Source: Methanothrix soehngenii GP6
Lineage (GTDB): Archaea > Halobacteriota > Methanosarcinia > Methanotrichales > Methanotrichaceae
Length of the DNA: 64,000 nt
Assembly (NCBI RefSeq): GCF_000204415.1
Contig: NC_015416.1
Location: forward strand, 310,001-374,000
Reading direction: 5' to 3'
Position numbers and translations under genes: made by a program. Positions 1,907 to 19,558 of this stretch are shown piece after piece (position 1 is the first letter of the stretch; the number at the start of each line of letters is the position of its first letter). The notes under the pieces are model-generated. The model had not been told where the DNA came from and ran no database searches. It saw nothing but the letters and a program-made list of their open reading frames with translations.

Positions 1907-2916
1907 CCCATGCGCCCCCTCTTTATAAGATATGCAAATATGGGAGCACCTACTAGAGAGGTTATTATGCCCAGGGGTATTTCCGTTACACTAACAGTTC
2001 TTGCCAGATCGTCTACAAGCAACATGAAAGATGCGCCGCATACCATGCTCATGGGCAGCAGGCGGTTGTAATTGGGGCCCACTATCATCCTTGAAATATG
2101 GGGCACCACCAGTCCCACCCAACCAATGACCCCGCTAATACTGACTGCCGCCGAGGTCACAAGGGTTGCACAGATAATGATTATCAAGCGCATTTTGTCC
2201 ACATTTACTCCCAGGGATCTGGCTTCCTCGTCGCCCAGTGAGAGGATATTGATGCGCCATCTGAGAAGGAACAATACAAGCATTCCAATGAACATGGGTA
2301 CAGTTATCCAGATCAGATCGCTGTACCTTATGCTGGAGAGGCTTCCCATAAGCCAGAAAACTATCTCAGGAAGTTCGTCATAAGGATCTGCGGCATATTT
2401 TGCCAGTGATATGAGGGCAGTGAAAATAGAACTCACAATTATTCCGGATAGAACAAGCACCAGAGTTCCGGTTCCCTTGCTAGCTTTATCCATGCTGATA
2501 GCAGCGAACATTGCCAGAAGTCCGAAAATAAAAGCCAGCAGCTGAATCATGATGTGGTTGTCGAATAATAGTATCCCCAGGCATGCACCAAAACCTGCGC
2601 CTGAACCCACACCCAGTATATAAGGCGATACCAATGGATTGCGAAACACACCCTGAAATGAGACACCAGCTACAGAAAGAGCGCAGCCTACGAGCATGGC
2701 TGCGAGGATCCTCGGCAATCTCACGCTGAACAATACTGTGTGATGAGTTGATGCTGGAATAGCAGTGCCAAAAAATAAAGCAGTGATAGTATTCATGATG
2801 TCATCTATTAAAACCGATACAGGTACCTGGTATCTTCCCATAAAGAGAGAAACTATGAGCATCAAGAAAGGCAATAAATACATGACAGTGGTGCCATGGT
2901 GCCTGCTATCAGGCAT
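1897..2916 (-). CDS. FecCD-family ABC transporter permease
   Basis: 339 residues with about ten hydrophobic segments from residue 12 to the end, matching the BtuC/FecCD permease fold used for iron-siderophore, haem and cobalamin uptake. Family-typical blocks are visible: RLPRILAAMLVG near 68, the PLVSPYILGVGSGAGFGA stretch near 94, and the GVIGWVGLVVPHISRM block near 262, which is the coupling region that contacts the ATPase. It overlaps the radical SAM gene upstream by 8 bases and the ATPase gene downstream by 10, which implies stoichiometric co-translation. It is the only permease in the operon, so it probably acts as a homodimer. Confidence 0.93.
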   Translation of the reverse strand: MPDSRHHGTTVMYLLPFLMLIVSLFMGRYQVPVSVLIDDIMNTITALFFGTAIPASTHHTVLFSVRLPRILAAMLVGCALSVAGVSFQGVFRNPLVSPYILGVGSGAGFGACLGILLFDNHIMIQLLAFIFGLLAMFAAISMDKASKGTGTLVLVLSGIIVSSIFTALISLAKYAADPYDELPEIVFWLMGSLSSIRYSDLIWITVPMFIGMLVLFLLRWRINILSLGDEEARSLGVNVDKMRLIIIICATLVTSAAVSISGVIGWVGLVVPHISRMIVGPNYNRLLPMSMVCGASFMLLVDDLARTVSVTEIPLGIITSLVGAPIFAYLIKRGRMGWN

Positions 2917-4681
2917 GAGTGCACTCCATCATATGCCCTGGCCACCCACTGGACGATGGCCTGTGGAAAGACCTGTTAGGGCTGGCATCCTCAAAGGACA
3001 TGCCATAAAAACGCCTGTAGAATTCATCTGCCTCCTTTTTAATGTCAATCCCAAGCTTTCCGGGATGGATTTTGTCCGCAATATAGAGAAGACCTAATAT
3101 CCAGCGAGGACTGCCGAAATCCCAGATTGGTGGTATCACATAGACCCTCTGCTCTTTTACCGCATCCGCTTCTATGCCATAATACCTGCACAGGCCATAG
3201 AACTCATCGAGCGGACGAGAGAGAAAACCGGAAATAAATATGGTTTGGGGATTATGTTCATTTATAAATGCAGGGGATACATTCACACCGGGTTTTCCTT
3301 CCCTCTGAAGCACTTTATTAATGCTCTTTCCTCCAGCAAAGGTCACAAGGTTGTTCTCCATTCTTCCTGCATTCAGGGCAAAAAGGGGTGAGCCCATACA
3401 GTAATAGACTGAATGATCGCTGTTCTCTGCCGCAAGGCTTAGAACTGATTCCATGCGCTTGCCGATAAAGGATGAAAGTTCCTCTCCCTGATGCTCTGCA
3501 CCTGCCTTTTTGGCGATCAGCCTGATAAACTCGAGATATGAGCATGGCTGTTGTATCAGGCGATGCATTTTCATAAGCGTTTCAGCGTCAGAGACCTCCC
3601 GCCAGACCTCAAGCAGTTTCCCTTCGTCAAATATTCCCATGCATATGAGCGCTGCATGTACCATACCAAAAGCCCGGCTTATCCTGTAACCACCCATGAA
3701 TCCGGCCTCACTGAAATTTTCACTGGCAGCAGTTCCCTTTACCTGGACATTATGCCCACAGCGGCAGGCATAGTCCGTCCAGGGCTTCAGAAGCCTGCAT
3801 CCCATGGGGCCGTGAAACTCCCTTTCTGCAAGCAGGCTCCCACATTGCGGACAGTAGGTATGCAATAATTCCGTGCCCGGAGAATTGAACAGATATACGT
3901 GATCCATGTGCTCGCGTATTGCCCTGCACAATCTTTCAGCATCCCCTATGGAGGGTTCCTGTTCAAGAGGTGTATCCCCGAATGGAATGAATCTCATCAG
4001 CTGTAAGGGGATCTCAGAGGAGACCTTAGATAGTGTTCTTGCAGCCTGCAAGACATCGGCTTCATTTCTCCTGGAATACACTACCGACGTCTCTACGTGT
4101 ACGCCCATTTCAAGAAGCCCGGCAATATTCCTAAAAACAGGAGTCGAGGATTTAGCACCACATGTCCTGTAAATACTATTGGAATATCCTTTGACCCCCA
4201 CGTTCACGAAATCTATCAGACCTCCAAGCTCTTCAAGCGTCTCTTCAGTGAAATAGCAATTTGTAGAGCAGCCAACAAGCAGGCTATTCTCCTTTGCCTG
4301 AACTGCAAGCTCCCTGAAAATGTAATAGTTGGCAGCCGGTTCATTAAGTGTCGAAACCACGCCCTGGCATTCCTGCTCCAGTGCTTTTGCGACTACCTGG
4401 GTTGGGCTGAGCGTTGGCCAGCCAAAAGACCGGTTGGATGCCAGCAATCTTGCCACACATCCCTGGCATTCAAAATTGCAGCCGGTACTGAAAACCTGCA
4501 GGAACTTTGCCGAGGGATGAAAATGCAGCATTGGTATGGTTTCCACAGAAATGGGATAGCCACCCATGTAGCCAATTTCAGGAGATTGAATTATGCTGCC
4601 GCCTTTCTTCACATAAGTCCCGCATCTACCTCTGCTATGCTCGTTGATCTCACAACCGATCTCGCATACTTTGCACTGCAT
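2909..4681 (-). CDS. Radical SAM enzyme fused to a substrate-binding-protein-like domain
   Basis: 590 residues. A cysteine cluster at the N-terminus (C3, C6, C10, C20) resembles that of PflA-like and AmmeMemo-type radical SAM proteins. The radical SAM motif CxxxCxxC is C68-C72-C75. A further group of cysteines (CPQCG near 285, CRCG near 315) could bind another Fe-S cluster or zinc. From about residue 430 the sequence changes to a TroA/FepB-like helical-backbone binding fold (a FAGG block near 440, then TIFISG, RVYVIPP and KLGIDIKKEADEFYRRFYG). That fold resembles the operon's own binding protein but has no signal peptide, so it should be cytosolic. Neighbours point to processing of an imported metal, corrinoid or metallophore. 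The reaction is unknown; the two-domain fusion is the notable point. Confidence 0.8.
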   Translation of the reverse strand: MQCKVCEIGCEINEHSRGRCGTYVKKGGSIIQSPEIGYMGGYPISVETIPMLHFHPSAKFLQVFSTGCNFECQGCVARLLASNRSFGWPTLSPTQVVAKALEQECQGVVSTLNEPAANYYIFRELAVQAKENSLLVGCSTNCYFTEETLEELGGLIDFVNVGVKGYSNSIYRTCGAKSSTPVFRNIAGLLEMGVHVETSVVYSRRNEADVLQAARTLSKVSSEIPLQLMRFIPFGDTPLEQEPSIGDAERLCRAIREHMDHVYLFNSPGTELLHTYCPQCGSLLAEREFHGPMGCRLLKPWTDYACRCGHNVQVKGTAASENFSEAGFMGGYRISRAFGMVHAALICMGIFDEGKLLEVWREVSDAETLMKMHRLIQQPCSYLEFIRLIAKKAGAEHQGEELSSFIGKRMESVLSLAAENSDHSVYYCMGSPLFALNAGRMENNLVTFAGGKSINKVLQREGKPGVNVSPAFINEHNPQTIFISGFLSRPLDEFYGLCRYYGIEADAVKEQRVYVIPPIWDFGSPRWILGLLYIADKIHPGKLGIDIKKEADEFYRRFYGMSFEDASPNRSFHRPSSSGWPGHMMECTHA

Positions 4682-16915: not shown

Positions 16916-16954
16916 ATGCTTAAGGCTTACAAGTTCAGGCTTTATCCCACAAAG
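16916..16954 (+). pseudogene. tnpB: Detached 5' end of tnpB
   Basis: Thirteen codons from ATG read MLKAYKFRLYPTK, the standard N-terminus of TnpB proteins. The frame is then interrupted by the IS110-type element. It resumes at 18464 with K-SQITKMERTL, so removing 1512 bases (16955-18466) restores an uninterrupted tnpB gene exactly. Confidence 0.9.
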
Positions 16955-17019
16955 AGCCCATGATCCTCAGGCGGGGATCATGCCCAAAGCATGAAAAACC
17001 CATAGAGCCATAGGCAAGG

Positions 17020-17162
17020 CTGATATGGGCAGTGAAGGTTGATCTGTGACCTGAGACATGATCTCGACACAAAGACAACCATGATCTCGTGGATGCCCAA
17101 ATGCGTCTTTGAACGCGTATGTGAAGTTGCACGCACGAGTGATCATCATCTGCCCATATCAG
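17020..17162 (+). ncRNA. Candidate bridge RNA of the IS110-type element
   Basis: A perfect 13-base inverted repeat, CTGATATGGGCAG at 17020-17032 and CTGCCCATATCAG at 17150-17162, closes a 117-base interior just before the transposase gene, where IS110-group elements encode their bridge RNA. Inside it are matches to the insertion site. CTGAGAC (17051-17057) is the reverse complement of the right flank GTCTCAG (18466-18472). CACAAAG (17068-17074) is identical to the left flank (16948-16954). ATGTGAAG (17119-17126) is identical to the element's right end (18459-18466). The first pair would be the target-binding loop and the third a donor-loop guide. A good second donor guide is not visible (only TCTT). 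This is a prediction from sequence. Confidence 0.6.
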
Positions 17163-17174
17163 GCAAGTGAGACG

Positions 17175-18428
17175 ATGGACTCAGATAAGGAAATAGTTTG
17201 CGGAGCAGATATCCACAAGGATTTTCTTATTGCTACAATGATATCCCGAAGTGGATTGAAGCTCCAAGAACGTTTTAATATGAACCAAGATGGCCTCTTG
17301 GCATTCAGATCCTGGATAATAAACCACAGATGCCAGAGGCTGGCTGTAGAATCCACGGGAGGTTTTTGGTATCCTATCTTCACCATTCTAGAAGGTCATG
17401 TCGAATTTATCCTGGCCAATGCATATCAGATCCGGAATATTGAGCACAAGAAAACCGATAAACTTGATTCGGAACGAATCGCGATATATTGTCTCAATAA
17501 TCTCATCACGCCCTCCAGAATCTATCCAAAAGACTACCGAGATCTAAGAAGCATAACTCGTGCTCGTGAGACACTGGTCAATGCAAGGTCCAAAATCAAG
17601 AACCAGATTCATCAATCACTTTCGACCTGCTGCATCAAGCTCTCCTCAGTCATATCCGACTCTTTTGGCAAATCTGGAAGATATATCATTGATAGGCTTC
17701 TGGAAGGAAAGACGATCGATCAGATCATATCTGGAATACCTTCGAAGAGGATTCGGAAAAAGGAGGACGAACTCAGAGAAGCCATCAAGAATGGATTAGA
17801 TCCCGTTCAGGTATTTTTGATCAAGGCAAATCTTGATGTCATAGATGATATTAGCAAGAAGATAAAAATTCTGGAAGCTGAGATCGCCGAAAAAGTCAAA
17901 CCCTTCGAGGATGATTTGAAAATTATTTTGTCTGTTCCAGGTGTTGGATTCATTTCGGCAGCTACCATTATTGCAGAAATGGGAGATTACAGGGACTTTC
18001 CGAGTGCGGATAAGATGGCAAAGTACTTCGGTATTGTGCCTTCGGTCTACCAATCGGCAGGGAAGCTGCGAACTGGGAAGATCACTAAGACGGGATCTAA
18101 GCATATGCGAAGGATCTTGGTGGAAGTTGCAAAAGCCATATCCAGGACCAAGAAGAATTCAAGGTTAATGAGATTCTTCCAGAGGATATTGGCAAGGTGC
18201 GGAAAGAAGAATATTGCAACCGTTGCGCTCGCCAGAAAAGTGCTCTGCATCATCTATCATTTGCTTATGAATCACGAGAATTATCAAGAACCAGAGGTCA
18301 CGAAAACCAAACCAAAAATTCCCAGCTCTGTTTCGCCCATAAGAATGATGGATATCGACGAGATGATAAAGATCATCAGTCAGGCAGGATACTTGGTGGA
18401 GAAAGATTTGAAGGAGGGATGCGGATGA
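17175..18428 (+). CDS. IS110-family transposase (bridge-RNA recombinase)
   Basis: 417 residues from the ATG at 17175. The N-terminal RuvC-like DEDD domain shows GADIHKD near 9, VESTGG near 60 and KKTDKLDSERIA near 96. A coiled coil spans about 170-260. The C-terminal Tnp_20 domain has SVPGVGFISAATIIAEMGDY near 254 and SAGKLRTGKITKTGSKHMRR near 292, the latter holding the presumed catalytic serine. All domains are intact, so the element could be active. An open frame runs 22 codons further upstream into the candidate bridge RNA, but the internal ATG matches family starts. Enzymes of this family excise and insert the element using a guide RNA. Confidence 0.92.
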   Translation: MDSDKEIVCGADIHKDFLIATMISRSGLKLQERFNMNQDGLLAFRSWIINHRCQRLAVESTGGFWYPIFTILEGHVEFILANAYQIRNIEHKKTDKLDSERIAIYCLNNLITPSRIYPKDYRDLRSITRARETLVNARSKIKNQIHQSLSTCCIKLSSVISDSFGKSGRYIIDRLLEGKTIDQIISGIPSKRIRKKEDELREAIKNGLDPVQVFLIKANLDVIDDISKKIKILEAEIAEKVKPFEDDLKIILSVPGVGFISAATIIAEMGDYRDFPSADKMAKYFGIVPSVYQSAGKLRTGKITKTGSKHMRRILVEVAKAISRTKKNSRLMRFFQRILARCGKKNIATVALARKVLCIIYHLLMNHENYQEPEVTKTKPKIPSSVSPIRMMDIDEMIKIISQAGYLVEKDLKEGCG

Positions 18429-18460
18429 TCCGCAGCATCTTGTTTTTTTAAGTTTTTCAT

Positions 18461-19558
18461 GTGAAGTCTCAGATAACCAAGATGGAGCGAACGCTGGACT
18501 TGTGCCGATGGACATACAACCAGACTCTAGCATACAGAAAGAACGCCTGGGAGAATGAAGGCAAATCAGTTTCCAAATATGAAACGAACGCTCTTCTTCC
18601 TGGTTGGAAAGAGGATAAACCCGAACTGAGAGACGTATATGCTCAGACCCTTCAGAATGTTCAGGAGCGGGTAGATCTAGCCTTTAAAGCCTTTTTCAGA
18701 AGGATTAAGGCGGGAGAAGAACCCGGATATCCCAGATTCCGAGGGAAGGGTTGGTACGATTCATTTACTTATCCACAACCTGAGAAGGGCGGCAATCTTG
18801 TTAACGGCATGGTACGTCTTCCCAAGATAGGCGATATCAAGATCAAGCTCCATCGCCAGATAGAAGGCAAGATCAAACGGCTGACCGTCAGAAGGACAGC
18901 CACAGGCAAATGGTTTGCATGCTTCTCCGTCGAAACGGAAGATGTTCCTCTCCCCCCCTGGAAAGATGGGGCTGTAGTAGGTATTGATGTCGGCCTTGAG
19001 AGCTTCGCCACCTTTTCCAATGGTGAGACGATAGCTAATCCTCGATTCTTCCGAGAAGAAGAACACGAGTTAGCTAGAGCCCAAAGGAAACTCTCTAAGG
19101 CTCCTAAAGGAACTCCAGATCGCAAGAAAGCTCTTAAGGTTGTTGAGCGAGTCCATGAGCGGATAGCTAACAAGCGATATGAGTTTGCCCATCGGGTTAG
19201 TCATAACTTGGTAGATAGATTTGGTCTAATAGCTTTTGAAGATCTTAACATCAAAGGCATGGTTCATAATCATTGCCTGGCTAAAAGCATCTCAGACGTA
19301 GCTTGGAACATGCTAGTGACTTTAACCTCTTACAAGGCTGCAAGTGCCGGTTCGGTGGTGGTCCTGGTAGATCCAAGGAATACGTCTAAGATGTGTTCCA
19401 GGTGTGGTACTCTCATTGAAAAGTCGCTGTCCGATAGAGTCCATAACTGCACTCTGTGCGGGCTGTCGATGGACCGGGATTGGAACGCAGCGATAAATAT
19501 TCTCAGATTGGGATTGCAATCTGTCGGCACAGGAAGCCGTGGAAGCCCTGCTATTTAG
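18461..19558 (+). CDS. tnpB: TnpB, RNA-guided nuclease of an IS605-type element, 5'-truncated by IS110
   Basis: 365 residues from a GTG supplied by the right end of the IS110 element. It keeps all functional parts of TnpB: the helical N-lobe, RuvC-I VGIDVGLESFATF near 170, RuvC-II FEDLNIKGM near 263, a zinc ribbon CSRCG...CTLCG near 310-333, and RuvC-III DRDWNAAINIL near 336. The native first 13 residues are replaced by Met-Lys. Known TnpB proteins cut DNA next to a short TAM using an omega RNA from the element's 3' end. Whether this version is expressed and folds without its first strand is open, since residues near the N-terminus are part of the beta barrel. Confidence 0.9.
   Translation: MKSQITKMERTLDLCRWTYNQTLAYRKNAWENEGKSVSKYETNALLPGWKEDKPELRDVYAQTLQNVQERVDLAFKAFFRRIKAGEEPGYPRFRGKGWYDSFTYPQPEKGGNLVNGMVRLPKIGDIKIKLHRQIEGKIKRLTVRRTATGKWFACFSVETEDVPLPPWKDGAVVGIDVGLESFATFSNGETIANPRFFREEEHELARAQRKLSKAPKGTPDRKKALKVVERVHERIANKRYEFAHRVSHNLVDRFGLIAFEDLNIKGMVHNHCLAKSISDVAWNMLVTLTSYKAASAGSVVVLVDPRNTSKMCSRCGTLIEKSLSDRVHNCTLCGLSMDRDWNAAINILRLGLQSVGTGSRGSPAI

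Follow-up and report, generated by a model that had tools for sequence, protein, structure and literature searches.

A 64,000-nucleotide stretch of the Methanothrix soehngenii GP6 genome (contig NC_015416.1, positions 310,001 to 374,000; hereafter, the window) carries a tnpB gene interrupted by an IS110-superfamily element of 1512 bp (16952..18463, + strand), which lies between CCACA and AAGTCTCAG. We find that this element is very probably a unit of a recombinase and a guide RNA with target and donor loops: a structured RNA in its left end holds guides that covary, among related elements, with the target and with the element's own right end. With less confidence, we think it probable that the element belongs to a separate IS110-superfamily lineage, common in methanogens and related archaea and with relatives in many bacterial phyla, which has a left-end RNA as in IS110 and a target loop wired as in IS1111, with RNA position and guide order evolving independently. 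A sequence-only reading of this stretch had proposed an IS110-type element at 16948-18472 with a guide RNA in its left end. The RNA, upstream of the transposase and with guides that track the flanks, is borne out, as is the type of the element; its ends were placed slightly off.

A structured RNA whose guides covary with flanking DNA

The RNA is closed by a perfect 13-bp basal stem (CTGATATGGGCAG, 17020-17032, with CTGCCCATATCAG, 17150-17162), which the sequence-only reading had already noticed. The predicted fold has an energy of -60.9 kcal/mol versus -41.7 for shuffles (z = -4.93). RNAalifold on 27 relatives recovers the basal stem, the target-loop stem, the target-loop hairpin, and the donor-loop hairpin, with compensatory change at nine pairs; the structure is thus conserved, as a fold and a covariance model from relatives had been proposed to reveal. 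A covariance model built on the relatives' alignment (R1) has matches in 24 of the 136 genera sampled from the phylum and 23 matches in the window's own genome, whereas an Rfam search of the RNA region gave nothing relevant (one chance match, E = 0.86).

The 3' strand of the target loop follows the left flank of its own element, with a mean longest match of 7.80 versus 4.45 in permutations (0/20,000; n = 41), and the complement of the 5' strand follows the right flank (5.62 versus 3.75; 0/20,000; n = 29). Both tests still give 0/20,000 when core bases are masked. Because the flanks in this first test were curated by hand, we ran a blind test on 21 previously unused elements, in which the model alignment supplied the guides and the upstream stretch compared was always 62 nt long; left guides again match left flanks (6.57 versus 5.20; 0/20,000). 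The guide order of IS621, in contrast, is null on the same data, with 6919/20,000 for the 5' guide against the left flank, 4567/20,000 for the 3' guide against the right flank, and 7492/20,000 in the held-out set. Since permutations count elements as independent though some are related, the exact significance of the 0/20,000 values is optimistic, and the contrast between the two orders is the more telling control.

The donor loop behaves similarly: for 25 of the 30 elements compared, its 5' strand covaries with the three variable bases at the right end (permutation mean, 3.4; maximum, 11). Target consensuses of multicopy families agree with the guides, e.g., right flanks AAATAAG for the guide complement AAAATAAGTA, and the close relatives L057 and L069 have different guides and flanks on a scaffold that is 86-90% conserved. 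The comparison of sibling loops with their own flanks, proposed as a check by the sequence-only reading, therefore comes out in favor of covariation across 41 and 29 elements and the 21 held out. From these sequence comparisons, we conclude that guides change with flanks in ∼60 related elements, as bridge and seekRNAs require.

TABLE 1 Features of the element and the interrupted tnpB gene
Feature	Position	Strand	Evidence
5' part of interrupted tnpB, 12 codons MLKAYKFRLYPT; ends in the left target CCACA	16916..16951	+	Sequence, empty copies L051-L053
IS110-superfamily element	16952..18463	+	9 genome copies; base after CATGTG tracks right flank; empty tnpB sites
Left subterminal inverted repeat CATGAAAAAC	16990..16999	+	
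Bridge/seek-type RNA (inferred transcript)	17020..17162	+	Fold z, RNAalifold, covariance model R1
Target-binding loop, closing stem GGTTG 17037-17041 / CAACC 17076-17080	17037..17080	+	
Right target guide TCTGTGAC, complement of GTCACAGA	17043..17050	+	Aligned with right guides of 27 relatives; covariation
Apical hairpin of target loop, TGAGA-CATGA-TCTCG, overlapping CTGAGAC	17052..17066	+	Relatives' alignment, fold
Left target guide CACAAAG	17068..17074	+	Relatives' alignment, covariation, held-out test
Apical hairpin of donor loop, GCGT...ACGC	17103..17116	+	RNAalifold on relatives
Left donor guide TATGTGAAG, matching right end CATGTGAAG	17118..17126	+	Covariation 25/30
IS110-family transposase, 417 aa	17175..18428	+	Pfam PF01548 and PF02371, both above cutoff
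Right subterminal inverted repeat GTTTTTCATG	18452..18461	+	
3' part of tnpB, begins with right target AAGTCTCAGATAACC	18464..19558	+	

Ends and copies of the element

Nine copies of the element, one of them interrupted and the other eight full, occur in the genome (3.03 Mb) and are 99-100% identical. Four of the nine lie fully in tnpB, three lie fully elsewhere with the right flank GAGTCACAGAG, and two are hybrids. Directly 3' of CATGTG, the tnpB copies have A and the other copies have G, whatever the rest of the element; since this base varies with the right flank, it belongs to the target and not to the element. Empty tnpB elements (L051-L053) read CCACAAAGTCTCAG or CCACAAGGTCTCAG, and four CCACAGAGTCACAGA sites are also empty. 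Together, these observations set the element at 16952-18463, between CCACA and (A/G)AGTC(A/T)CAGA. A core AG at element positions 6-7 was considered and dropped in favor of a boundary before (A/G)AG, as position 1517 tracks the right flank in every copy. The subterminal inverted repeats, 10 bp in the window element, average 8.7 bp over 26 elements, and the two ends covary (0/20,000 permutations).

The two hybrids, L007 (G000:C1:659026-660550) and L009 (G000:C1:851119-854111), lie in opposite orientation and have reciprocal flanks, one with tnpB on the left and the repeat on the right, the other with the repeat on the left and tnpB on the right. This is the pattern expected of an inversion of ∼190 kb by recombination between two copies. 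L009 is itself split, at about 2838-4297, by another insertion of ∼1.46 kb with a 10-bp duplication, GAGAATTATC. In the copy L008, the target-loop hairpin has lost 7 bp (element positions about 108-114). Four short derivatives or remnants (L011, L012, L013, and L014) retain ∼53 bp of the left end, joined in two of them to the right end, and lack both the RNA and the transposase; L011-L013 occupy the same CCACA target class as full copies, a location consistent with targeting in trans.

tnpB and dispersed repeats as targets

In the window, the insertion splits tnpB precisely at the boundary of codons 12 and 13. In the alignment, ATCTGTGACC takes the place of the relatives' right guides; within it, TCTGTGAC complements GTCACAGA, found to the right of three other copies, without a mismatch and the tnpB site GTCTCAGA with a single internal one. 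Likewise, the right side of the dispersed CCACAGAGTCACAGA repeats fits the guide exactly, and the conserved tnpB sequence CCACAAAGTCTCAGA fits with one mismatch; tnpB is therefore a real but near-cognate target. The genome has 47 sites within two mismatches of CCACAAAGTCACAGA and none for the reversed control. Judged by these matches, tnpB suits the RNA no better than the dispersed CCACAGAGTCACAGA repeats do and is one of two target classes.

The sequence-only reading had the RNA programmed for insertion into the N-terminal codons of tnpB genes. Its tnpB target holds, but programming specific for tnpB is improbable, given the one mismatch there and the exact fit to CCACAGAGTCACAGA. Identical loops at different flanks, which it had named as an observation that would speak against its model, do occur, literally, at both target classes; since only a few bases separate these classes and the guides fit each of them, the model is left standing. 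As an account of the outcome, its picture of one transposon preying on another is apt: the element sits at a conserved spot of tnpB, and the case documents entry of an RNA-guided transposon into that spot in another transposon's gene.

In the same genome, an element of a different IS110 subfamily (L045) has another TnpB-like reading frame (MQLIKTIVLKL...) directly downstream, in its right flank. Two Methanoperedens relatives (L111 and L123) have the left guide CACAGAGT and the left flank ACCACAGAGT, indicating that another subfamily also targets CCACAGAG-type repeats.

Alternative explanations

The sequence-only reading had taken CACAAAG and CTGAGAC (17051-17057), 10 bases apart, as the guide pair of an RNA programmed for tnpB. 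They match the window flanks, CACAAAG on the left and GTCTCAG on the right; GTCTCAG lies within the target, and CACAAAG spans the left junction, with CCACA from the target and AAG from the element or shared. Such a pair is indeed rare by chance: of 20,000 shuffles of the RNA that preserve dinucleotides, 525 contain CTGAGAC, 195 contain CACAAAG, and 5 contain both. CACAAAG stands as the left target guide. For CTGAGAC as the right guide, the seven-base match, its presence in just 2.6% of shuffles, and the four of nine copies fully inside tnpB all speak. The same 2.6%, however, makes CTGAGAC alone easily coincidental, and in the alignment it forms the 5' strand of the target-loop apical hairpin (TGGGAC...GATCCCG in most relatives), which is kept by relatives with other targets. 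A sister element, L055, retains it despite the right flank GTCACAG, L008, which may have lost it before or after insertion, sits in tnpB, and it is TCTGTGAC that aligns with right guides and matches GTCACAGA at the three other copies. We thus consider CTGAGAC an improbable right guide and its match most likely a coincidence, although it could still have an auxiliary role. For tnpB, a single insertion followed by spread through hitchhiking with the tnpB element only is favored by the repetition of the tnpB elements themselves at different places, and outer flanks do differ between filled and empty copies. Against it, the right-side tnpB haplotype at L006 has two differences from the empty L053 versus four to six from other filled copies, a pattern that calls for a gene conversion or for two or more insertions; a single entry is therefore rather unlikely, and tnpB was probably entered at least twice.

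Could the RNA be something other than a right-first guide RNA? Its position directly upstream of the transposase and the AAAC/AAAG cores common to the elements would fit a conserved attenuator or terminator with no guide role, its flank matches stemming from A-rich cores, but the core-masked and held-out tests and the covarying donor guide make this highly improbable. An IS621-type layout with the left guide first draws on the upstream RNA and on a donor loop ordered as in IS621, with the left donor guide on the 5' strand; the three null tests of that order leave it next to no credence. Several points also weigh against the guide-RNA unit that we favor. The nine window-family copies share identical guides (one with a deletion) and are unable by themselves to show covariation, and recombination between copies, as at L007 and L009, obscures some flank histories. 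The flanks in the first test were hand-curated and the cores are A-rich, two points that the masked and held-out tests address. Finally, no right donor guide with a consistent match to the left end was seen by eye.

Transposase and proposed mechanism

The transposase has the DEDD/RuvC and IS116/IS110/IS902 C-terminal domains, which, with a guide RNA that covaries with target and donor, place the element in the IS110 superfamily. Its catalytic residues, assigned by alignment, are D12, E59, D95, D98, and S294, invariant among the relatives aligned. The profile matches IS621 (8wt6) over both domains (E = 3.1e-21) and also the ISCro4 recombinase. In a 61-protein tree, transposases of the window clade (about 405-440 aa) fall outside both the IS4321/IS5075 and the IS621 branches; with few references and long branches, the tree does not settle the rooting among IS1111, IS621, and the window clade (86/42 support).

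By analogy with IS621 and IS1111, the left end probably gives rise to the RNA as a transcript, which the transposase would bind. The element would form a circle with the predicted junction ...CATGTG-AAGAGCCC..., where the 5' strand of the donor loop, TATGTGAAG, would pair with the right end. Strand exchange would then place the element between CCACA and (A/G)AGTC(A/T)CAGA, and the same guide would admit copies to both CCACAGAGTCACAGA repeats and tnpB CCACAAAGTCTCAGA.

Comparison with IS110 and IS1111 elements

In the window element and its relatives, the right complement precedes the left guide, and the RNA lies upstream of the transposase. Comparison with IS621, another check that had been proposed, shows the reverse order there, with the left target guide first (PMC11208158; also read in a public copy). 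Right complement then left is instead the order reported for target guides in the IS1111 group, as in the seekRNA elements IS4321/IS5075, ISEc11, ISKpn4, and ISPa11 (PMC11187229). In our own reading of IS4321, the right guide AAAACGGAAA is followed by the left guide TATTTTC and the left donor guide ATAGATTC, downstream of the transposase. The 10-bp subterminal inverted repeats also fall within the 7-17 bp of the IS1111 group. Unlike the window element, however, that group has its RNA downstream of the transposase, and its transposases, of 330-350 aa rather than 417, form a separate branch.

The upstream RNA is the trait of the IS110 group. With IS621 and ISCro4 (PMC11208160, PMC11208158), the window element further shares target and donor loops, a left donor guide on the 5' strand, and aligned catalytic residues. 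It lacks the other IS110-group traits, namely, a left-first guide order (null in the permutation tests) and absent or short subterminal inverted repeats; IS621 has repeats of 2-3 bp and a transposase of about 326 aa. ISEc21, an IS110-group seekRNA element (PMC11187229), likewise has an upstream RNA with guides for both target strands, but it opens with the bottom-strand match, opposite to the order in the window element.

Parts of this combination have already been glimpsed, as a deep IS110 branch includes two elements with inverted repeats and an upstream RNA occurs, rarely, among IS1111 relatives, e.g., ISMtsp17 (PMC11187229). The window clade may be that deep branch. We found no statement on the guide order of these elements in the text of PMC11187229 and no earlier account of guide RNAs of archaeal IS110 elements in the literature searched, which excluded most subscription papers and all preprints. 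In two relatives from Bacteroidota (L137 and L143), the RNA is apparently downstream of the transposase, with left-guide/left-flank matches of 8-9 bases, which hints that the RNA changed ends within the clade.

If the clade is a lineage of its own, its target loop would be placed, relative to the donor loop, as a mirror image of that in IS621, and the IS621 synaptic geometry would not be directly transferable; any such difference in geometry is one that we infer. Dozens of elements with read-out targets offer ready orthologues to test as programmable recombinases. Published work couples guide order to group, with the RNA downstream in IS1111 and upstream in IS110; in the window element the two are uncoupled, which makes the relation of guide order to recombination geometry directly testable.
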